Shown in pieces: positions 16,373 through 36,372 of a DNA stretch of 43,218 bases (its first letter is position 1; every line of letters begins with the position of its first letter). Under the pieces are notes generated by a model. It searched no databases. It was not told the origin of the DNA and worked only from the letters and a program-made list of their open reading frames with translations. The translations under genes were made by a program, and so were the position numbers. Source of the stretch: Desulfobacteraceae bacterium (GTDB lineage: Bacteria; Desulfobacterota; Desulfobacteria; Desulfobacterales; SKZT01); contig JAABTQ010000027.1 in assembly GCA_011389745.1 (NCBI GenBank), positions 1 through 43,218 of the forward strand, written 5' to 3'.

Positions 16373-16470
16373 CCCCGATGTTGCATTGTACAAAGAGCGG
16401 TTATCAGGAACTTGGCCCTTTAAAAATGGCCGGATTGAAGCAAAAATGCTTATTGTTTGCAACATCGGGG
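16373..16470. repeat. 98-bp inverted-repeat element (MITE-like)
   Basis: Perfect 13-bp terminal inverted repeats CCCCGATGTTGCA (16373-16385) and TGCAACATCGGGG (16458-16470) bound a short non-coding interior with a smaller palindrome (GGCCCTTTAAAAATGGCC). The right end is 1 nt from the stop codon of the small membrane-protein gene. The left arm resembles short repeat E at 5201 and 6475. It could act as a bidirectional terminator or be an immobile MITE. Confidence 0.8.
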
Positions 16471-27280: not shown

Positions 27281-27549
27281 TGATCTTATACACACTTGAC
27301 ACATGGGGTACTGTATCATGCTGAATTTATAATTATTTTATGATTAATATATTCGTTTGGTGATCAAATTTTTTAGGACTACATGTTCCAATTTGCCGTC
27401 ATTCCGGGCGCAGCGAAGCGGAGACCCGGAATCCAGTCAGCCGCTGAAACCCCCTGGATTCCTGCTTTCGCAGGAATGACGAAAAAAACTCGATCATCAA
27501 GATTCAAGCAGTTAAAAATGCCCCCTGTGTCATGTATGTGCAAAGATCA
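27281..27549. mobile_element. Nested MITE-like insertion with ~28-bp terminal inverted repeats
   Basis: The left end TGATCTTATACACACTTGAC (continuing ACATGGGG to 27308) and the reverse complement of the right end (TGATCTTTGCACATACATGA, continuing CACAGGGG) agree at most positions. The 269-bp element has no ORF. It contains another dispersed palindromic repeat (27397-27481) and sits inside family B copy 2, giving three nested layers. Confidence 0.75.
27397..27481. repeat. Dispersed palindromic repeat family D
   Basis: CGTCATTCC (27397-27405) and GGAATGACG (27473-27481) are perfect inverted ends, and between them GACCCGGAATCCAG faces CTGGATTCCTGCTTTCGCAG. This is the 'cgtcattccggcgaaagcaggaatcc' type of repeat common in many proteobacterial genomes. 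It lies inside the nested insertion at 27281-27549. Confidence 0.8.
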
Positions 27550-27591: not shown

Positions 27592-27855
27592 CTATTCCTT
27601 GGGGATAAAAACTTCTTCCATTTTGGTAAAACTTTCATCTACCGCTTTTTTGAAATCATCCCGGGATTTTTTGTAAAACCCGAGCACATCATTCATGGCC
27701 TTTTTGTTTTCTTCGGGTACCATCGGCATCTGTTTGATAAAACTGTCGACCATGTTTTCGGTCTGTTCGAAGACCATATTCATAGCATGGTAAGAATTTT
27801 CAAAAAGACTTTTTTGAAAATTGATCATTTGTTTGCCCATTTTTTGCATTTCCAT
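27592..27855 (-). CDS. Phasin-like granule protein
   Basis: This 87-aa helical protein opens MGKQMINFQKSLFENSYHAM and ends KSRDDFKKAVDESFTKMEEVF. It has the same layout as the two small proteins at 35148 and 35470 (IIDFQK[A/T]TFDN and KKARSDFKNTVDGNFKK). Phasins coat PHA granules, and these sit in a PHA synthase locus. It has no signal peptide or Cys. AGGAGG lies upstream of the ATG, and farther upstream is a promoter with the TGCAGTGCACAAA motif (27948-27999) shared with the other phasin unit, implying common control by PhaR. Confidence 0.8.
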   Translation of the reverse strand: MEMQKMGKQMINFQKSLFENSYHAMNMVFEQTENMVDSFIKQMPMVPEENKKAMNDVLGFYKKSRDDFKKAVDESFTKMEEVFIPKE

Positions 27856-27947: not shown

Positions 27948-27999
27948 ATTTTAATTGGAAACATATGGTTTGTCAAGATTAAATGATGCAGTGCACAAA
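27948..27999 (-). promoter_or_regulatory. Phasin promoter with putative PhaR operator
   Basis: On the minus strand the -35 box TTGACA (27971-27976) and -10 box TAAAAT (27948-27953) are 17 nt apart. The motif TGCAGTGCACAAA (27987-27999, plus-strand reading; TTTGTGCACTGCA on the minus strand) lies 10 nt upstream of the -35 box. The same motif occurs at the same place before the second phasin unit (35832-35844). TGC-rich palindromic sites are the known type of PhaR target. Confidence 0.7.
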
Positions 28000-28036
28000 T
28001 AAATTTTTTCATTTTATTTAAAAGTAATTTTTCAAA

Positions 28037-28694
28037 TGAGTGTGTGAATAAAAAGTCTATTATTTCCTTCACATTTTTCGATATCTCCAATAAGGAGGGA
28101 AGTTTTCGTTCATGCACAAATTAGATTCTTGATATTGAAAAAAAAGTTTACTATAGTGCCTGAATGAAAAGTCCATAATTCCCTCTCCCATCGGGGGAGG
28201 GTCAGGGTGGGGTAATAATATCAGTAACTTATCTTTCCCTCCCCCAGCCCCTCCTTCTGGGAGTGGAGTTTTCGTTCAAGCACCACTATAACCGATAAGT
28301 AACAAGACTTCAGTGTTCGAGTGTTCAGGAAGGAAAGATTCATAGTCGGCCATTCATTTTGTACCAATAAAATGGAGTTCGCACTCCTTATGAAAAGTGG
28401 CGGTCACGGCCTCCTCACCATGACGGTCGGGGGGTAAAAAGACATGTTGTGCCGGGAACAAGAGATTCTTCGTCGGCCATAGGTTTTGTGCCGGATGATA
28501 AAGCGTATTGCCGGCCTCCTCAGAATGACATTGGCAAAGGTGTCATTCTGAGGGAGCGATCGGAGTGTTTGTCATTCTGAGGGAGCGAAGCGACCGAAGA
28601 ATCTCCTGATCCAGGTTGGCAGTGAACACTAAAACCATTTTACGATAATCAGCGACGAAAAATAACATCTGCAAATAAGGGAGATTTAAAATAG
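28037..28694. repeat. Non-coding block of dispersed repeats upstream of phaE
   Basis: No gene is seen. The block contains a degraded family B element (28037-28118: TGAATAAAAAGTCTATTATT ... GGGAAGTTTTCGTTCATGCAC) and a fuller family B copy 3 (28154-28288, TAGTGCCTG to GCACCACTA). A short heptamer trace lies near 28311. From 28505 to 28612 there are three partial units of family C: one inverted (CCTCAGAATGACA), then two direct copies of TGTCATTCTGAGGGAGCGA. The phaE promoter must lie within or downstream of these repeats; I cannot identify it. Confidence 0.7.
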
Positions 28695-29609
28695 ATGGAA
28701 CAGCAACCGGACCAGAATCAAGAAAAAGAAGCCATGGATATGACCAAAATGTTCAGTATGTGGCTGAAGGCGACCATAAATTTTTGGGAAAATATGCCTC
28801 GGATGAAACCGGATGAAAGTGCAATGTTCAATTTATTTACAAACCAGCCAAAAGGTACGCCTCACCAGGCGCAACAAACATGGGATCGGGGGACTAAAAT
28901 TGCCGGCGCTCTTGTATCCATGCTCAGTGAGCCTGAAAATCTGGATGCCATGTTCAAGGCAACCGATGCTGTTCCCGAATTTATCATGAAAATTTCGCAG
29001 CAGGTTTGGGAGGGATATTTCGAGGCCCAGAAAAATTGGACTGAACGCGCGGTCAGAATAGGTAAGCATGAAAAAGCTTACAATTTTGATGATCTGGATC
29101 AGGAGACCTTTAAAACGTTACGGGACATTTACGAGAAGGAATTTCAGCGCTATTTTTATATTCCGCAAATCGGATTGACGCGATTTTACCAGGAAAGGGC
29201 CAACACGGCCATTGATAAGTATAATATTTTTCAAACTGCATTAAGCGAATTTATTTACATGTTTTATGTCCCCATGGAAAAATCCGCGATGGTCATGCAG
29301 GAAAAAATCAAGGATATGGTGGAAAAGGGTGAAATCAGCGATAACTACAAAGAGTATTATTCCATGTGGATCAAGATACTGGAAGGCCACTATATGAAGC
29401 TATTGCAATCGCCGGAATACACTCAGGTGATGAACAAAACTATTCATTCACTTGTTGCATATCGAAGTGCCCGTGATGAAATGATGTACGATATCCTTAA
29501 AAATTTGCCTATCCCCACAAATCGTGAAATGGATGAGCTTTACAAGGAATTTTATGAGCTGAAAAAAAAGGTGAGGGAGCTTTCCAGGAAGGTTGAAGAA
29601 CAAAAGTAA
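28695..29609 (+). CDS. phaE: Class III PHA synthase subunit PhaE
   Basis: This 304-aa helical protein matches PhaE in length class and position directly upstream of phaC. Recognisable parts are MFSMWLKATINFWENM at the start, RYFYIPQIGLTRFYQER (the PhaE PxxGxxR/YF region) and a C-terminal coiled coil (DELYKEFYELKKKVRELSRK). PhaE is non-catalytic and needed for PhaC activity and oligomerisation. GGGAG lies about 12 nt before the ATG, which is further than usual. phaC follows after 47 bp with its own AAGGAGG. Confidence 0.9.
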   Translation: MEQQPDQNQEKEAMDMTKMFSMWLKATINFWENMPRMKPDESAMFNLFTNQPKGTPHQAQQTWDRGTKIAGALVSMLSEPENLDAMFKATDAVPEFIMKISQQVWEGYFEAQKNWTERAVRIGKHEKAYNFDDLDQETFKTLRDIYEKEFQRYFYIPQIGLTRFYQERANTAIDKYNIFQTALSEFIYMFYVPMEKSAMVMQEKIKDMVEKGEISDNYKEYYSMWIKILEGHYMKLLQSPEYTQVMNKTIHSLVAYRSARDEMMYDILKNLPIPTNREMDELYKEFYELKKKVRELSRKVEEQK

Positions 29610-29656
29610 ACGCCGAAAACTCAACTTAAAGGCTTTGGGGTAAAGGAGGAAAGCTT

Positions 29657-30862
29657 ATGAGCCAGACAAAAATCCCAGTGGATTTAATACTAAACCGGTT
29701 GGCGGAAAGTACCGAGGAGGTCAAGGAAAAAGTTCAAAGGGCTTCGGAAGTATTATTGGGGTCTTTGGAAACCGACATTTCCCAGACCCCCCATGAAATA
29801 GTTTATCAGGAAGACCGGGTTAAAGTAAAATATTACAGACCTGAAAAAATCAAACACAAAATTCCTCTGCTGGTGGTCTATGCTTTGATCAACCGTGAAA
29901 CCATGCTGGATTTGCAGCCTGGAAGAAGTGTGATCCGGAATTTTCTGGAAAGCGGTTTGGAAGTTTATATGATTGATTGGGGTTATCCCAAGCGAAAGGA
30001 TCAGTTTGTTACCATAGATGACCATGTCAATGGCTACATGGATAACATCATTGATTTCGTCAGGAAAAAACATAATTTGAGCAAGATTAACCTGATGGGA
30101 ATATGCATGGGCGGGAGTTTTTGTGTCATGTACTCAGCTCTGCACCCGGAAAAAATTAAAAACCTGGTCACCACGGTTACCCCTACCAATTTCGACACGG
30201 ATAAGGGGTTGCTTCATATCTGGATGAAAAACACATTGGCTGAAGAGATGGGTCCAACCTATGGAAATATGCCGGCGGACATTATGAACCTGGGGTTTCT
30301 TCTCTTAAACCCCGCACGCCTGATTATTGATAAATACATAGGCTTTTTTGAAAATATGGATAACAAAAAGTTTGTGGAAAATTTTGTTCGGATGGAAAAG
30401 TGGATATTTGACAGCCCGGATGTACCCGCAGCAACATTCAAACAGTTTATCGAAGACTGCTATAAGAAAAACCTTCTTATTCAAAGCAAACTTGAACTCA
30501 ACGGAAAGCGTGTGGATTTGAAAAAAATTACCATGCCGCTTTTAAATTTTTACGGAAAATATGACCATCTGGTTCCACCGGAGGCTTGTAACCTGTTGAC
30601 CCAAAAGGTTGGAAGTCAGGATACCGAGGATATCTGTTTGGATACCGGCCATATCGGTATTTATGTCAGTTCGAAGTGTCAAAAGGAATTCACTCCCAAA
30701 ATTTCAAAATGGCTCAAGCAAAGAGAGGGGGACGAAATCACTGAGCCTGCCACCAAAACCCAACCCAAGAAAAAAAAAAGTACTAAAAGTCATCGGAAAA
30801 ATTCCAGGCAAACACCAAAAAAGAGGCTATCCATCAATAAGGGTCAAGGAGAGAAGAGATGA
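29657..30862 (+). CDS. phaC: Class III PHA synthase subunit PhaC with extra basic tail
   Basis: This 401-aa alpha/beta-hydrolase has the synthase lipase-like box GICMGGSF with nucleophile Cys150, Asp303 (NFYGKYDHLVPP) and His332 (LDTGHIGIYVS). These are within one residue of the positions I recall for the Allochromatium class III enzyme. Other signatures are YMIDWGYPKRKD and FVENFVRMEKWIFDSPD. It polymerises (R)-3-hydroxyacyl-CoA to polyester at the granule surface. Classic class III PhaC is about 355 residues; here a Lys/Arg-rich tail of some 45 residues (KKKKSTKSHRKNSRQTPKKR within it) is added. Its stop overlaps the start of the double-GAF gene (ATGA). Confidence 0.95.
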   Translation: MSQTKIPVDLILNRLAESTEEVKEKVQRASEVLLGSLETDISQTPHEIVYQEDRVKVKYYRPEKIKHKIPLLVVYALINRETMLDLQPGRSVIRNFLESGLEVYMIDWGYPKRKDQFVTIDDHVNGYMDNIIDFVRKKHNLSKINLMGICMGGSFCVMYSALHPEKIKNLVTTVTPTNFDTDKGLLHIWMKNTLAEEMGPTYGNMPADIMNLGFLLLNPARLIIDKYIGFFENMDNKKFVENFVRMEKWIFDSPDVPAATFKQFIEDCYKKNLLIQSKLELNGKRVDLKKITMPLLNFYGKYDHLVPPEACNLLTQKVGSQDTEDICLDTGHIGIYVSSKCQKEFTPKISKWLKQREGDEITEPATKTQPKKKKSTKSHRKNSRQTPKKRLSINKGQGEKR

Positions 30863-31905
30863 GCAAATCAAAAAACTATTTTAAGACCATCTGCAATGTA
30901 AGCAAGACCTTCGGGACCACTTACGATAAGGAAAAACTTTTGGATGTCATCGTCGACAGCGCCATCGATATTATGGATGGCAAAGCTGTTTGCTTGTTTC
31001 TGGAAGATGAACGCAAAAACGTTTTTGTCCCGGTGACGCAAAAAGGTCTTTCTGAAAACTATCTTCACGCTGAACCCAGTCAGGCTAAAATAGGTGTGGA
31101 AGATATTCTCACAGGTGGTCATATCGCCATTTATGATGCCGTTTCTGATCCTCGTGTGGAAAATCACGAAGCCAAAAAAGCCGAAGGTATAGCTTCAATT
31201 CTTGTGGTACCTATTCGTGTCAGGGAAAAAGCCATTGGAATTTTATCTCTTTATACGTCAGACCCGCGCAAGTTTAAGGAGGATGAAATTGATTTTCTGG
31301 GAGCATTAGCGGAGCAGGCGGGTATGGCCATCAGCAATGCCCGCCTTGTTGATCGTATGCGCATGAATACCGAATTTTTTCATGATTTAGCGGTCAATAT
31401 TAATTCTACCCTGGATGTCAAAAAAATACTCCAGATAATGTCCGCGGATATTGCCGAGATATTAGGGGTTAAAGGTATTACGATCCGTCTTGTGAACGAA
31501 GAATCCGGCACTCTTATGCTTGTGACAAATTTTGGCCTGAGTAAAAAATACCTGGACAAGGGTCCCTTTTACTATGACAAGACCACTCTGGAGGCTCTGA
31601 AAAAAAGGCCGGTGGTTACAAAGGATGTTGCCGTTGATGAAAACGTGCAATATCGAAAAGAGAAAATGGAGGAAGGAATCGTTTCCATACTCGCCGTACC
31701 TATTCATGCCAGAGATGATGTGATCGGTGTGTTGAAACTTTATTCGGATGTTCCCAGGGAATTTACCGAGGACGATATTATGCTGGTGACTGCCATGGCC
31801 CACCAGGGGGGGCTGGCTATCCAGAATGCTTCCATGTATATACGTCTTCAGGAAGACAAAAAAAGTCTCGAAGAGGACGTATGGAGCCATAGGATGTGGT
31901 TTTGA
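30859..31905 (+). CDS. Double GAF-domain protein
   Basis: This 348-aa protein contains two GAF domains, at about 20-165 and 185-335, each closing with the typical strand-helix pattern (ILVVPIRVREKAIGILSLYT ... and ILAVPIHARDDVIGVLKLYS ...). No kinase, cyclase or DNA-binding domain follows; it ends with a short helix and SHRMWF. It should therefore be a soluble sensor or scaffold whose ligand is unknown. The 4-nt ATGA overlap with phaC indicates translational coupling, so a role in controlling PHA synthesis is plausible but inferred. Confidence 0.85.
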   Translation: MSKSKNYFKTICNVSKTFGTTYDKEKLLDVIVDSAIDIMDGKAVCLFLEDERKNVFVPVTQKGLSENYLHAEPSQAKIGVEDILTGGHIAIYDAVSDPRVENHEAKKAEGIASILVVPIRVREKAIGILSLYTSDPRKFKEDEIDFLGALAEQAGMAISNARLVDRMRMNTEFFHDLAVNINSTLDVKKILQIMSADIAEILGVKGITIRLVNEESGTLMLVTNFGLSKKYLDKGPFYYDKTTLEALKKRPVVTKDVAVDENVQYRKEKMEEGIVSILAVPIHARDDVIGVLKLYSDVPREFTEDDIMLVTAMAHQGGLAIQNASMYIRLQEDKKSLEEDVWSHRMWF

Positions 31906-31963
31906 TCGGAAAGCAGAGTTGTGCCCATAGGTCAGTTTAAATGCCTTTGAATAGCATTTTCCT

Positions 31964-32082
31964 GTCATTCTGAGGGAGCGGCTTTCAGTGGTTTAATGAT
32001 TACCCTGGCGAACGAAGAATCTATCCCTCCACTTGTGCTGATGATCATGTATTGGAAATGAAAGATTCTTCGTCGGGCGGGA
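31964..32082. repeat. Dispersed repeat family C
   Basis: TGTCATTCTGAGGGAGCGG at the left and GAAAGATTCTTCGTCGGGC at the right belong to the repeat seen at 28505-28612 (there with AGCGAAGCGACCGAAGAATC). An inner GAACGAAGAATCT faces AGATTCTTCG, giving an inverted structure. It lies in the gap between the convergent GAF and SDR genes and may serve as a transcription barrier. Confidence 0.65.
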
Positions 32083-32123
32083 ATTTAGTGTCAACGTGGA
32101 GAAGGTATTGTTGACCACCTCTA

Positions 32124-32918
32124 TTATCCTTTGGAGCCGAGTCTCAAACCCCCGTGGATAAAATAAACATCTCCGGCAAGGGCCTCATTTTTGTATAATT
32201 CTCCCACCAGTGATGCCACTTCTTCAGGCTCGACAAGTCTTCCGATGGGCACCTGGGTTAAAATACCATCCAGCGCTTTCTGGTTCATGTCTTTGACCAT
32301 GGGAGTTCCCACATAGCCGGGAGCCACGGCAACACATCGAATCTTATCCGCCAGGCCGCGACGGAAAAATTCCGCTGTAATGACCTTGGGCATAACCGAC
32401 ATGGCTGCCTTGGATGAGGAATAGTTGATCTGACCCGCGGTTCCTAAAGAGCCGGTAGAAGACACCAAACATATCAGCCCTTTGCAATTGTTGTTGATCA
32501 TTCGTTCCGCACATTCCCGAACAGTCAAAAAAACCCCTGTAAGGTTGATGTCCAGAACTTTTTGGAAAAAATCCAAAGGCATTTTCTTTTTGACTTTTCC
32601 GGTTTCACGATCCGTAGAAACCAGGAGGCTGTCTTTGATGATGCCGGCAAAGGGAGCTACCAGGTTAATGGCACCGAATTTTTCAATGGCCGTGTCGGCA
32701 AGCTTCCCGTTGTCTTCCTCCGTGGTTACATCCATCACCACCGTAGAGACCTCACCATGTATGGCCCTTATTTCTTCTTCAGCAAGCTTCAAGGGTTCTT
32801 CAGATATATCCCCGAGAACAACCTTGCCGCCGTTTTCAACCCAGTATTTGGCCAATGAAAGGCCGATACCGCCTCCTCCTCCAGTGATTACCGCAACTGA
32901 ATTCTTAATTTCCAGCAT
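32124..32918 (-). CDS. SDR-family oxidoreductase (possible 3-oxoacyl-CoA reductase)
   Basis: This 264-aa classical short-chain dehydrogenase has TGGGGGIG (13-20) for the cofactor, LVAPFAG in place of the usual NNAG, DINLTGVF, the catalytic Ser near 153 (LVSSTGS) and Y166-SSS-K170. The acidic GDISEE after the second strand suggests NAD rather than NADP, whereas PhaB-type acetoacetyl-CoA reductases usually prefer NADP. Position as last gene of the minus-strand PHA unit suggests it supplies or consumes 3-hydroxyacyl-CoA. It follows the 162-aa gene by 18 bp, with a GGGAGG ribosome-binding site. Confidence 0.85.
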   Translation of the reverse strand: MLEIKNSVAVITGGGGGIGLSLAKYWVENGGKVVLGDISEEPLKLAEEEIRAIHGEVSTVVMDVTTEEDNGKLADTAIEKFGAINLVAPFAGIIKDSLLVSTDRETGKVKKKMPLDFFQKVLDINLTGVFLTVRECAERMINNNCKGLICLVSSTGSLGTAGQINYSSSKAAMSVMPKVITAEFFRRGLADKIRCVAVAPGYVGTPMVKDMNQKALDGILTQVPIGRLVEPEEVASLVGELYKNEALAGDVYFIHGGLRLGSKG

Positions 32919-32936
32919 GGCTTTCTCCCTCCCGGT

Positions 32937-33425
32937 TTAATTATTATCCTTGTCTTCTTTTTGAAAATATTGACCGACGGTATTCATTATTTCCATGAAC
33001 TGTTCACTTTGTTTTGTCATGAGATCCTGAAAAACTTTTGCGGTTTCTCCCTGGTCAATACTTTTATCACGCAAAAGCATTTGCAAATGACGAATGGTTT
33101 CATCCTGGTCGGCAACCTTTTTTTTAAGTGCCTCATATTTTTCTACCAGGCTGATATAATCTTCCTTGGGTACAACACCGACCATTGTCATATATTCCCT
33201 GAATGTGTTCTGGAACTCTTCGGTGGCATTCCGCCAGGTTTTTATGTACTCGGGAGCATCTTTTTCAATGTTTTCGAGGCCGTAAAATTTCCGAAACATG
33301 GCTGCCATTTCTTCAAAGCCTTTAAAACCCTGATGGCTTAATTTGAAAAAATCTTCCATCTGTTTTTGGTTTTTGGCGGCACTTAAGAAAAGATTGCCTA
33401 AAAACTCTAAATACTTGTCATCCAC
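32937..33425 (-). CDS. Small helical PHA-locus protein, possible PhaE-like partner
   Basis: This 162-aa protein is entirely helical, with a predicted coiled coil at about 95-120 (YEALKKKVADQDETIRHLQM) and no Cys or signal peptide. Its length and helical content recall the C-terminal part of PhaE or the PhaR/PhaM-type synthase partners, but I cannot align it confidently to either. It lies 68 bp downstream of the large second synthase-like gene and 18 bp upstream of the SDR gene, so it may be that enzyme's accessory subunit. This is an inference from position. Confidence 0.6.
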   Translation of the reverse strand: MDDKYLEFLGNLFLSAAKNQKQMEDFFKLSHQGFKGFEEMAAMFRKFYGLENIEKDAPEYIKTWRNATEEFQNTFREYMTMVGVVPKEDYISLVEKYEALKKKVADQDETIRHLQMLLRDKSIDQGETAKVFQDLMTKQSEQFMEIMNTVGQYFQKEDKDNN

Positions 33426-33493
33426 TATATTTCTCCGGACACTTTTGAAGGTTTATTGGACCTATATTGAGCGATCCCATCTATAGGAATCTT

Positions 33494-35155
33494 TTAATCT
33501 TTCTTTTTTTTATCGATCTCTTCATCCAGATCAAGATGAAACCTTACAGGACCCCGGCAATTATCACCAAAACAGGTGTGCAGGGCGCATTCTGATGTGG
33601 GAAGTGACCAGGAAGTGGCAATGGCCACATGGCCTTTAGGAAATGCCGAAACCTCTGCTTTGACATAATCGAGAGGTGCTAAGGCTGTTTCTTTTTCCAC
33701 GAGATCATCATTGACCCCAAAACAGATAAGCCATTTGATACCCTTTTGCTCAATCCGCTTCAAATTAAGTTCATGGTCGAACATTTTAACTGGAAGGGTT
33801 CCATCTTTGGTAATAGGGATATTGTAGGAATCGAAACTCATTTTGGTGATGGCCATGGGAAGATCAGTTCTCTCGTAGTTGAGCCAGTAGTTAATGGCTG
33901 CAGCTGTTTTGCCCACTTTGGTTATTTTGGATTTTGCAAGCCGGCCAAACATCATTAAATCCCGGTAGTAGGCGGCGATCGGGGATTCATGCTCAATGCT
34001 TTTGATTTTGTACACCCACCCCATCAGTTTTCCATCCGCTACTTTATTCCCATTGGGATTCGTTTTGGTTCCATAGGCAAGATCATTGAAACGCTCGGGA
34101 AGGCAGTTTAAAAACTTTGCCAGGCCGTCACTTCGGGTTCCATCCATGGGAGCCACACAGGTAATCAGGGCATCAACAAGGCCATCCAGTTTGCCCGTTA
34201 AATAATCACAGACAACCATGTAGCCACCCTGGCAGTATCCGTTAAGGGTGATGGGTTTGGAGTTTCTTTCCAATATTTTTTCACAAAAATACCTGGTGTC
34301 CAGACAGTCGTCTTCAGGGGTCATTAACTGTAGTGCTTCGGTGGTATTGATGTCTTTCATAATCCGGATGTAAGTGGGGATACCGCTGTTGGCAAAGCAG
34401 TGGGCATAACTTCGGTTTTCTTTGGGCAGGAAAGCCAGAATGTTTGCTCCAAGAACAAACGGGGGCACAATGAGAATCGGTTTTTTGTCCGGATCAATTT
34501 TGATTTGATTATCAACAGGGGCTACCTGATAAAGAAAAAAGCGATTTGTTTCCGCTACCAGTTCGTGATGGCCGCGTTCGAAATGAAAACCGTACTCAGG
34601 CTCGATCTCAAGGATCGCCTTGGGGTAATCCTCAGCCAGCATTTTGATCAGATCGGATTGACGGGTTATAAATTCGCTGAGAGTTTCACCTTCATGGCGA
34701 ATGAATGGAAACCATGTTTTGATCACGGCAGCGATCGCATTTTGAATTTCATATTCATGGTAGCTGGAGATAGCTTTCATGCTGCTTTGAAACCCGCGGC
34801 TGAAAATTTCCATATTAAATTCAAGAAGATCCATATAAGACTGGAAGCTTTCCAATGGAGGTGTATTTAGAAGCTTTTTTTGTTCTACCCCGTTGAAATA
34901 TAGTGTCGCCATGAGATACGGAATTGTGAATTCATTGGCATATTTGGAAAATCCGGCATGATAATCCTGGATCATCCGAACCAGTAGCGAGAATGTCTCA
35001 AGGTTTTTAACAGAGTTTAGATCCATATCTTTTCCATTCAGATTGCAATCATGCAAAAACATTTCAGGTAACTCTCCACGATTTAAAATAATAAAAAGGT
35101 ACTCCAGGGGCTTAACCCCTGGAATTCCATTATAACCTTCCATAAAATCAGGCAT
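33494..35155 (-). CDS. Second, large PHA-synthase-like alpha/beta hydrolase
   Basis: From the ATG at 35155 the protein has 553 residues. The hydrolase core contains the synthase-type Cys nucleophile Cys308 in TLNGYCQGGYM, an Asp in CFGVNDDLVEKE (483/484) and His509 in FPKGHVAIAT. About 200 helical residues precede the core. This is close to a class I/II PhaC in size but quite unlike the class III PhaC at 29657. The start overlaps the end of the upstream phasin gene by 8 nt in another phase, so translation is probably coupled; no separate ribosome-binding site is seen. The C-terminus is charged (EEIDKKKKD). Function as polymerase or depolymerase-like enzyme is not proved. Confidence 0.82.
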   Translation of the reverse strand: MPDFMEGYNGIPGVKPLEYLFIILNRGELPEMFLHDCNLNGKDMDLNSVKNLETFSLLVRMIQDYHAGFSKYANEFTIPYLMATLYFNGVEQKKLLNTPPLESFQSYMDLLEFNMEIFSRGFQSSMKAISSYHEYEIQNAIAAVIKTWFPFIRHEGETLSEFITRQSDLIKMLAEDYPKAILEIEPEYGFHFERGHHELVAETNRFFLYQVAPVDNQIKIDPDKKPILIVPPFVLGANILAFLPKENRSYAHCFANSGIPTYIRIMKDINTTEALQLMTPEDDCLDTRYFCEKILERNSKPITLNGYCQGGYMVVCDYLTGKLDGLVDALITCVAPMDGTRSDGLAKFLNCLPERFNDLAYGTKTNPNGNKVADGKLMGWVYKIKSIEHESPIAAYYRDLMMFGRLAKSKITKVGKTAAAINYWLNYERTDLPMAITKMSFDSYNIPITKDGTLPVKMFDHELNLKRIEQKGIKWLICFGVNDDLVEKETALAPLDYVKAEVSAFPKGHVAIATSWSLPTSECALHTCFGDNCRGPVRFHLDLDEEIDKKKKD

Positions 35156-35420
35156 CGGTTTTTGTGCTGTCGAAAAATTCCTGCACTTTTTTAAAATTGC
35201 CGTCCACTGTATTTTTAAAATCACTCCGAGCTTTTTTGTAATTATCGAGCCACTCTTTAATCACTTTTTTGCCTTCCGCAGGAAGCCATTCAGCCTGGTT
35301 CAAAGATGTACTGATCATAGTCTCTCCCTGTTCCTGAAGGGTAGACAGAGCGTTAAAAGAGTTGTCAAAGGTGGCTTTCTGAAAGTCGATGATTTGTTTA
35401 AATAAATGTTTCTGGTCCAT
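35148..35420 (-). CDS. Phasin-like granule protein
   Basis: This 90-aa helical protein (LFKQIIDFQKATFDNSFNAL, then KKARSDFKNTVDGNFKKVQEFF) is a paralogue of the proteins at 27592 and 35470. The ATG at 35420 is chosen because AAGGAG lies 6 nt upstream; an in-frame GTG at 35426 abuts that box. It overlaps the start of the second synthase gene by 8 nt and follows the first phasin by 49 bp. It probably covers the PHA granule surface. Confidence 0.82.
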   Translation of the reverse strand: MDQKHLFKQIIDFQKATFDNSFNALSTLQEQGETMISTSLNQAEWLPAEGKKVIKEWLDNYKKARSDFKNTVDGNFKKVQEFFDSTKTDA

Positions 35421-35469
35421 ATACACTCCTTGTATTTTAATGTCGGTTGTGAGATAAAGCTCTTATTGT

Positions 35470-35718
35470 TTAAACAAAAGGCTCTTCCATTTTTGTAAAA
35501 TTGTCGCTGACCATTTTCTTGTAGTCTTCTCTGGCATTTTTGAACATTTTAACGGAATCGTCAAAAGCCTTTTTGCCCTCTTCAGGCATCCATTGCATCT
35601 GCCCGATAACATCGTTGGCCAGTTTTTCAGCCTGATCCTGAATTTGTACAATTGCATTGTAGGTGTTGTCAAAAGTGGTTTTCTGAAAATCAATGATTTG
35701 CTTTACATAATTTTCCAT
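35470..35718 (-). CDS. Phasin-like granule protein, first gene of the minus-strand PHA unit
   Basis: This 82-aa protein is MENYVKQIIDFQKTTFDNTY followed by a helix with QMQWMPEEGKKAFDDSVKMF and a C-terminus NFTKMEEPFV. The segment [W/M]-x-P-E-[E/G]-[N/G]-K-K is shared by all three phasins of the window. The start at 35718 has AAGGAG 8 nt upstream; the frame could be extended to 35793 but that would place the -10 box within the gene. It is transcribed from the strong promoter at 35793-35820, divergent from phaR. Confidence 0.83.
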   Translation of the reverse strand: MENYVKQIIDFQKTTFDNTYNAIVQIQDQAEKLANDVIGQMQWMPEEGKKAFDDSVKMFKNAREDYKKMVSDNFTKMEEPFV

Positions 35719-35792
35719 GTTATAAACTCCTTGTTTTTTTGTTTTAGTTTGTTGTTTGTTTATTGTGCGTTGCCTGATCAGGTTTAATCTCA

Positions 35793-35844
35793 ATTATAGG
35801 GAATTAATCGATATTGTCAAGGAAAATATATTGCAGTGCACAAA
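35793..35844 (-). promoter_or_regulatory. Promoter and putative PhaR operator of the phasin-synthase unit
   Basis: On the minus strand a consensus TTGACA (35815-35820) and a consensus TATAAT (35793-35798) are 16 nt apart. The motif TGCAGTGCACAAA (35832-35844 on the plus strand) lies 11 nt upstream of the -35 box. The same motif occupies the same place before the phasin at 27855. The site also lies 63 nt upstream of the phaR start, so PhaR could regulate both directions. Confidence 0.78.
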
Positions 35845-35907: not shown

Positions 35908-36372
35908 ATGGCAGAAATAATACTGCTCAAAAAATATGCCAATCGACGACTGTATGACACGGACCAAAGTGCTTATGTGACACTTAACGAGGTGGCTGAC
36001 CTTATAAAAGCAGGAAATCAGGTTAAGGTCATTGATGCCAAATCCGAAGAAGATGTTACCCCGTTTATACTGTCACAAATCATCATGGAAAATGCCCGTA
36101 AAAAAAATGCGCTTCTTCCGGTAACGTTACTTCATCTGATTATTCGACACGGTGATAATGTACTGGAAGAGTTTTTTGAAAATTACCTCGAGCAGACCAT
36201 CAAGAATTATATCACCTATAAAAGCGCAGTGGATGAGCAATTCAAGAAATGGATGGATTTGGGGATGGATTTATCCGATATGACACAAAAAACAATTACG
36301 GGCTTGTCTCCTTTTAAAAGCATTTTCAAAAATCTCGCCGAGGAAGAGGAAAATGATAAGAAGGGAAAATAG
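35908..36372 (+). CDS. phaR: PHA synthesis regulator PhaR
   Basis: This 154-aa protein starts with the PHB/PHA accumulation regulator DNA-binding domain: ILLKKYANRRLYDTDQSAYV followed by TLNEVADLIKAGNQVKVIDA, nearly the family consensus. The middle (ILSQIIMENARKKNALLP) is the accumulation-regulator domain that binds polymer. PhaR represses phasin genes until PHA granules titrate it away. ATG 35908 is preferred to an in-frame ATG at 35836 because homology begins there; AGGAG is only 2 nt before it, an unusually short spacing. It is divergent from the phasin-synthase unit and shares its control region. Confidence 0.93.
   Translation: MAEIILLKKYANRRLYDTDQSAYVTLNEVADLIKAGNQVKVIDAKSEEDVTPFILSQIIMENARKKNALLPVTLLHLIIRHGDNVLEEFFENYLEQTIKNYITYKSAVDEQFKKWMDLGMDLSDMTQKTITGLSPFKSIFKNLAEEEENDKKGK

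Follow-up and report, generated by a model that had tools for sequence, protein, structure and literature searches.

The DNA analysed here, referred to as the window, is a stretch of 43,218 nucleotides from a Desulfobacteraceae bacterium (contig JAABTQ010000027.1). On its plus strand it carries phaR (35908..36372), encoding a predicted PHA-responsive repressor of 154 aa, which matched PF07879 (PHB_acc_N; E 4.8e-27, 94.3 bits against a cut-off of 25) and TIGR01848 (E 3e-30, 104.6 bits, just below the equivalog cut-off of 109.45). The PHA context of phaR, within 9 kb at most, comprises a class III PhaC (TIGR01836, 402 bits), PhaE, a ketoreductase and phasin-like genes. Divergently from phaR runs a minus-strand unit of two phasin-like genes recognized by a small-phasin profile (82 aa, 35470..35718; 90 aa, 35148..35420), a gene of uncertain start codon whose product is a PhaC-like alpha/beta hydrolase bearing a synthase-type GYCQGG box (33494..35026), a gene for a small helical protein that is PhaE/phasin-like by context and has no family match (32937..33425), and a gene for an SDR ketoreductase of the PhaB/FabG type (32124..32918). 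A detached phasin-like gene of 87 aa is located further away on the same strand (27592..27855; matched by the small-phasin alignment A1 with a profile E of 2.8e-38). The PhaC-like protein of the phaR-side unit matched TIGR01836 with E 6e-8, far under the cut-off of that model, and no Pfam model at E < 0.001; it possibly represents a divergent class of PHA synthase or depolymerase. Two PhaC-type proteins are encoded in the window, and the class III phaE-phaC pair is found at 28695-30862 on the plus strand, beside the second, divergent PhaC-like gene.

A pattern search of the window yielded exactly two copies of the 13-mer TGCAGTGCACAAA, at 27987-27999 and 35832-35844, and when up to 2 mismatches were allowed the next-best match in the window was at 16382 alone. 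The chance expectation for an exact copy, given the base composition of the window, is about 0.0013 per 43 kb. The first copy overlaps predicted PhaR operator 1 (minus strand, 27984..27998), which reads TTGTGCACTGCATCA and fits TNNTGCRNYGCANNA. On the same strand, at 10 nt from the operator core, the detached phasin-like unit has its -35 box, TTGACA (27971..27976), followed with a spacer of 17 by the -10 box TAAAAT (27948..27953). Predicted operator 2 (TTGTGCACTGCAATA; minus strand, 35829..35843) is situated between the divergent phasin-like unit and phaR, and here the minus-strand boxes are TTGACA at 11 nt from the core (35815..35820) and, with a spacer of 16, TATAAT (35793..35798). Downstream of each promoter an ORF for a small helical protein of 82-87 aa begins (ATG 27855 and ATG 35718). 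In comparison with the congener G043, operator 1 is a conserved island. The initial annotation had described the 13-mer as occurring twice, 10-11 nt upstream of a minus-strand TTGACA and in otherwise different sequence, with phaR divergently beside the second copy. These coordinates were reproduced, the plus-strand phaR, with its PHB_acc_N match, has its ATG at 35908, and no homology was detectable between the flanks of the two 13-mers (34% identity upstream; an alignment score matched by 474 of 500 shuffles). It had further stated that each 13-mer drives a phasin gene and that the second precedes a phasin unit. A phasin-like gene is indeed the next one downstream in both cases and the second site does precede such a unit, but no curated phasin model matches these genes and the unit is longer, comprising five minus-strand genes.

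The three small proteins of the window share one profile, and one to several copies of this family were present in nearly every phaR-bearing genome. When compared with the curated phasin models (Pfam PF05597, PF09361 and NCBIfam), 0 of 14 family members reached a cut-off, the closest match being that of one of the 14 to PF05597 at E 0.053. The AlphaFold2 model of the 90 aa protein (35148..35420) is a two-helix hairpin with a pLDDT of 91, and the small phasin had no significant counterpart in the PDB, whether searched by sequence or by fold. These small helical proteins have phaR and PhaC-like genes as neighbours. As none of the curated phasin models recognizes them, we infer the name phasin from their context, size, helicity and co-occurrence with PhaR.

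Conservation was studied in 146 genomes of the same order (Desulfobacterales, judging by the named relatives), 73 of which contain PF07879, with the operator-promoter module defined as TGCN3GCA-N(8-12)-TTGAC; the reading covered 48 loci at which a high-scoring PhaR is encoded and the upstream DNA of phasin-like genes situated away from phaR, in 40 stretches. The module occurs in 33 of the 36 phasin promoters that diverge from phaR and in 25 of the 38 that are detached. Dinucleotide shuffles gave a mean of 0.06-0.07 per set and a maximum of 1 (a reversed-pattern null was avoided because reversal alters the dinucleotide content), and the control promoters of 28 pyruvate:ferredoxin oxidoreductase (PFOR) orthologs gave 0/28. 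The conservation before orthologous phasins that the initial annotation had proposed as a check is thus borne out, operator and -35 distance being kept in 58 of 74 promoters, which are not independent because the genomes are related and which span dozens of genera. In these 58 promoters the distance from operator to TTGAC ranges over 8-12 nt and is most often 10-11, the -35 box is TTGACA in 51, the -10 box has at most one mismatch to TATAAT in 38, the spacer between the two is mostly 16-17 nt long, and the spacer DNA is AT-rich. Position weights revealed a T at -3 in 58/58 and an A at +11 in 57/58, so that the refined operator is the palindrome TNNTGCRNYGCANNA. The module was missing from 13 of the 38 detached phasin promoters, some of which perhaps do not belong to the first gene of a unit, and in the phaR-divergent promoters L049, L067 and L068 the operator cores are not followed by TTGAC at the customary spacing. 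In five genomes (G013, G017, G047, G082 and G119) the region upstream of phaR has neither a detected operator nor a divergent phasin, and the detached phasins carry the module. This implies that the site follows the phasin.

Named relatives with the module are Smithella, Desulforhopalus singaporensis, Desulfocapsaceae and an Olavius symbiont, and it was also found in one Myxococcales MAG. Several Alphaproteobacteria have extended operators upstream of phaR, without the module. Many of the 20 non-phasin matches that were inspected in relatives lie inside coding sequence; those in promoter-like positions stand before two PhaC-like genes, a gene that by eye is DUF3141-like, two further phasin-like genes and atpF. 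Homologs of the PhaC-like protein of the phaR-side unit have a PhaR module upstream in G055 (L228) and G010 (L230). Before phaE of the class III pair in the window no module was found. The module before the atpF-like gene (ATP synthase subunit b) was seen in two species of one genus (G049 C1:2925897, L226; G132 C178:11150, L227).

At the phaR-side promoter a weak operator-like site, TCAGGCAACGCACAA (minus strand, 35763..35777), lies downstream of the -10 box, with a PWM score of 4.8 compared with about 20 for primary sites. It is kept in the congener G043 within the block ACCTGATCAGGCAAYGCACAATAAA. A general two-operator arrangement was considered and rejected, a site scoring >4 downstream of the -35 box being present in 5 of the 58 promoters (0.9 expected). 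Besides, a perfect palindrome, CCTGATCAGG at 35773-35782, overlaps the weak site and is conserved in G043.

The sequence TGCAGTGCACAA, found at both window sites, agrees at every position with the consensus TGCRNYGCASMA of PhaR from Bradyrhizobium diazoefficiens, which was derived by DNase I footprinting together with six other promoters (PMC6201568). In that organism one footprinted PhaR site precedes the -35 region of phaP1 by 6 bp, and phaP1 expression is about 50-fold up without PhaR (PMC6201568). As in the promoters described here, phaP1 and phaP4 of B. diazoefficiens combine the 12-mer consensus with a phasin target, and at phaP1 one site is upstream of the -35 region. However, phaP1 carries another site of full strength just past the -35 region, whereas a single strong site is the rule here, and a further difference is that none of the curated phasin families recognizes the phasins described here. 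The window sites also agree with the PhaR motifs of Herbaspirillum and Sinorhizobium. The PhbF motif of Herbaspirillum seropedicae, TGNTGCN3GCAA, was footprinted at the phbF promoter, and phaP1 and phbF fusions were repressed (PMC3206438); the motif is of the same type as here, but its position relative to the promoter is another one and the gene context is betaproteobacterial. Sinorhizobium meliloti PhaR (AniA) uses a YGCRNYGCR palindrome, mutation of which abolishes EMSA shifts, and the distal one of two sites suffices for binding (PMC12542648). Its palindromic core with AT-rich arms and its phasin promoters are as in the present system, and so may be the extension of its regulon to central carbon metabolism. 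In contrast, two sites flank the -35 element of S. meliloti phaP1 and phaP2, and the regulon comprises dozens of promoters where three strict module copies were counted here. PhaR acts as a strong repressor of phasins both in B. diazoefficiens and in S. meliloti (PMC6201568, PMC12542648). As PMC3206438 and PMC3570403 cite it, PhaR of Ralstonia eutropha H16 is a phaP repressor that binds PHB, and the same accounts place its sites upstream of the phaP -35 region and at the transcription start. In position this pair resembles the strong and weak pair at the phaR-side promoter; a difference is that the R. eutropha sites are described as two 12-bp repeats. The sites of the window, their position in the promoter, their conservation and their match to published PhaR sites are read directly from the DNA.

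One further exact TGCANTGCACAA was found by pattern search in the own genome (G000) outside the window. It belongs to a third intergenic module, C6:16099-16123 (L001 1499-1525), with the sequence TTGTGCATTGCA-ataaagta-TTGACA. The ATG of a 1186-residue ORF identified as PFOR, a single-copy gene in G000, follows about 110 bp downstream. This copy had been overlooked in the initial annotation, which mentioned two phasin sites, both of them real. The own-genome regulon was read from pattern searches; nearly all one-mismatch operator matches elsewhere in the genome are within long open frames, and a module match at G000 C1:132421 was taken as chance because it is inside an MttB-family coding sequence. 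The same site precedes PFOR in G043 (L191), the one congener searched, where operator and -35 box stand out as an island when the diverged DNA of the two species is aligned. None of the 28 more distant PFOR orthologs has the module upstream, and PFOR was rejected as an order-wide PhaR target, since G043 alone shares the site. The pyruvate dehydrogenase gene pdhA of B. diazoefficiens is among the candidate targets of PhaR, although bound more weakly in vitro, and pdhA and pckA are candidate PhaR-activated targets (PMC6201568); pdhA fell in the Bradyrhizobium phaR mutant. As a candidate target, pdhA provides a parallel for PhaR control of the conversion of pyruvate to acetyl-CoA. The PFOR module suggests that acetyl-CoA supply may belong to the same PhaR regulon in this genus. 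We lean, by a little, towards genus-specific direct control by PhaR of PFOR and of the two-helix granule family, which would couple acetyl-CoA supply to storage in an anaerobe. The PFOR site makes this link directly testable in anaerobes.

Both 13-mers are very probably PhaR operators, at which PhaR would repress the phasin-like units until granules titrate it away. PhaR encoded at 35908 would bind the palindrome, which is centred about 15-16 bp upstream of the -35 box, near -50, and the bound protein would repress the near-consensus sigma-70 promoters of both units. When PHA granules form, PhaR would bind the polymer and leave its operators, and phasins would then be made in proportion to the granule surface. 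That PhaR binds these sites, that it represses and does not activate, and that PHA releases it are here presumed after the characterized PhaR of other bacteria. Repression is less obvious than for sites that flank the -35 element, because a single operator near -50 misses the core promoter. From such a position upstream of the core promoter PhaR could instead activate, as it may do at pdhA and pckA of B. diazoefficiens, and this would apply especially to PFOR in view of the fall of pdhA in the phaR mutant. We regard activation of the phasin-like units as unlikely, since near-consensus promoters fit a need for repression rather than for help, the phasins of B. diazoefficiens and S. meliloti are strongly repressed, and a weak second site past the -10 box is in keeping with blocking.

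The small-phasin family was present in 60 of 61 genomes with a high-scoring PhaR compared with 4 of 85 other genomes, the boundary of about 84.8 bits having been chosen after the data were seen. The own genome encodes two further PHB_acc_N proteins with a lower score and different C-termini (G000 C16:3589, L061; C23:99945, L062), and a search of the 9-12 kb surrounding their genes yielded no strict TGCRNYGCASMA site. On the basis of this co-occurrence and of the absence of strict sites near the paralogs, the operators were assigned to PhaR of 35908, and the case for this protein as the probable regulator is strong. With the conservation in 58 of 74 promoters and the fit to published PhaR sites, the proposal of the initial annotation that one regulator, PhaR, acts at both sites appears well founded. 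With three PHB_acc_N genes in the genome, one of the paralogs, or an unrelated protein, could bind the sites instead. That is quite improbable, as module and phasins go with the high-scoring PhaR and not with the paralogs (within the post hoc boundary), strict sites were not found within 9-12 kb around the paralog genes and the sites fit footprinted alphaproteobacterial ones. The three phasin-like genes are paralogs of one another, and the identity of the 13-mers might therefore be a relic of promoter duplication without regulatory role. However, the flanks are unrelated and only operator and promoter elements are shared; the operators of G000 and G043 are conserved islands in diverged DNA, and the same module precedes PFOR and two PhaC-like genes, none of them phasins, which makes such a relic extremely unlikely. 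Chance similarity, for which nothing but the shortness of the 13-mer speaks, has practically no probability left and is refuted by the conservation of the module (58/74 phasin promoters); roughly 0.0013 exact copies would be expected per window.

PhaR operators controlling the phasin-like units would extend the PhaR-phasin feedback of Alpha- and Betaproteobacteria, as a fixed-spacing operator-promoter module, to Desulfobacterota and at least one Myxococcales MAG; no published PhaR regulon for Desulfobacterota or Myxococcales was found in the literature searched. The regulatory site is of a known kind and its comparative support is strong; what it would add is an uncharacterized phasin-like family and a possible new target. 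The module marks a small-protein family unseen by the curated phasin models as well as PhaC-like proteins, and it can be used to find granule genes that are missed by sequence families. Finally, recurring GC-rich stretches resembling dispersed repeats (for example 'tcattctgagggagcgaagcgaccgaagaatct' and 'ccctcccccagcccctcc') were noticed by eye between the genes near the PHA genes of the window, at 27390-27480, 28180-28270, 28500-28600 and 31960-32080.
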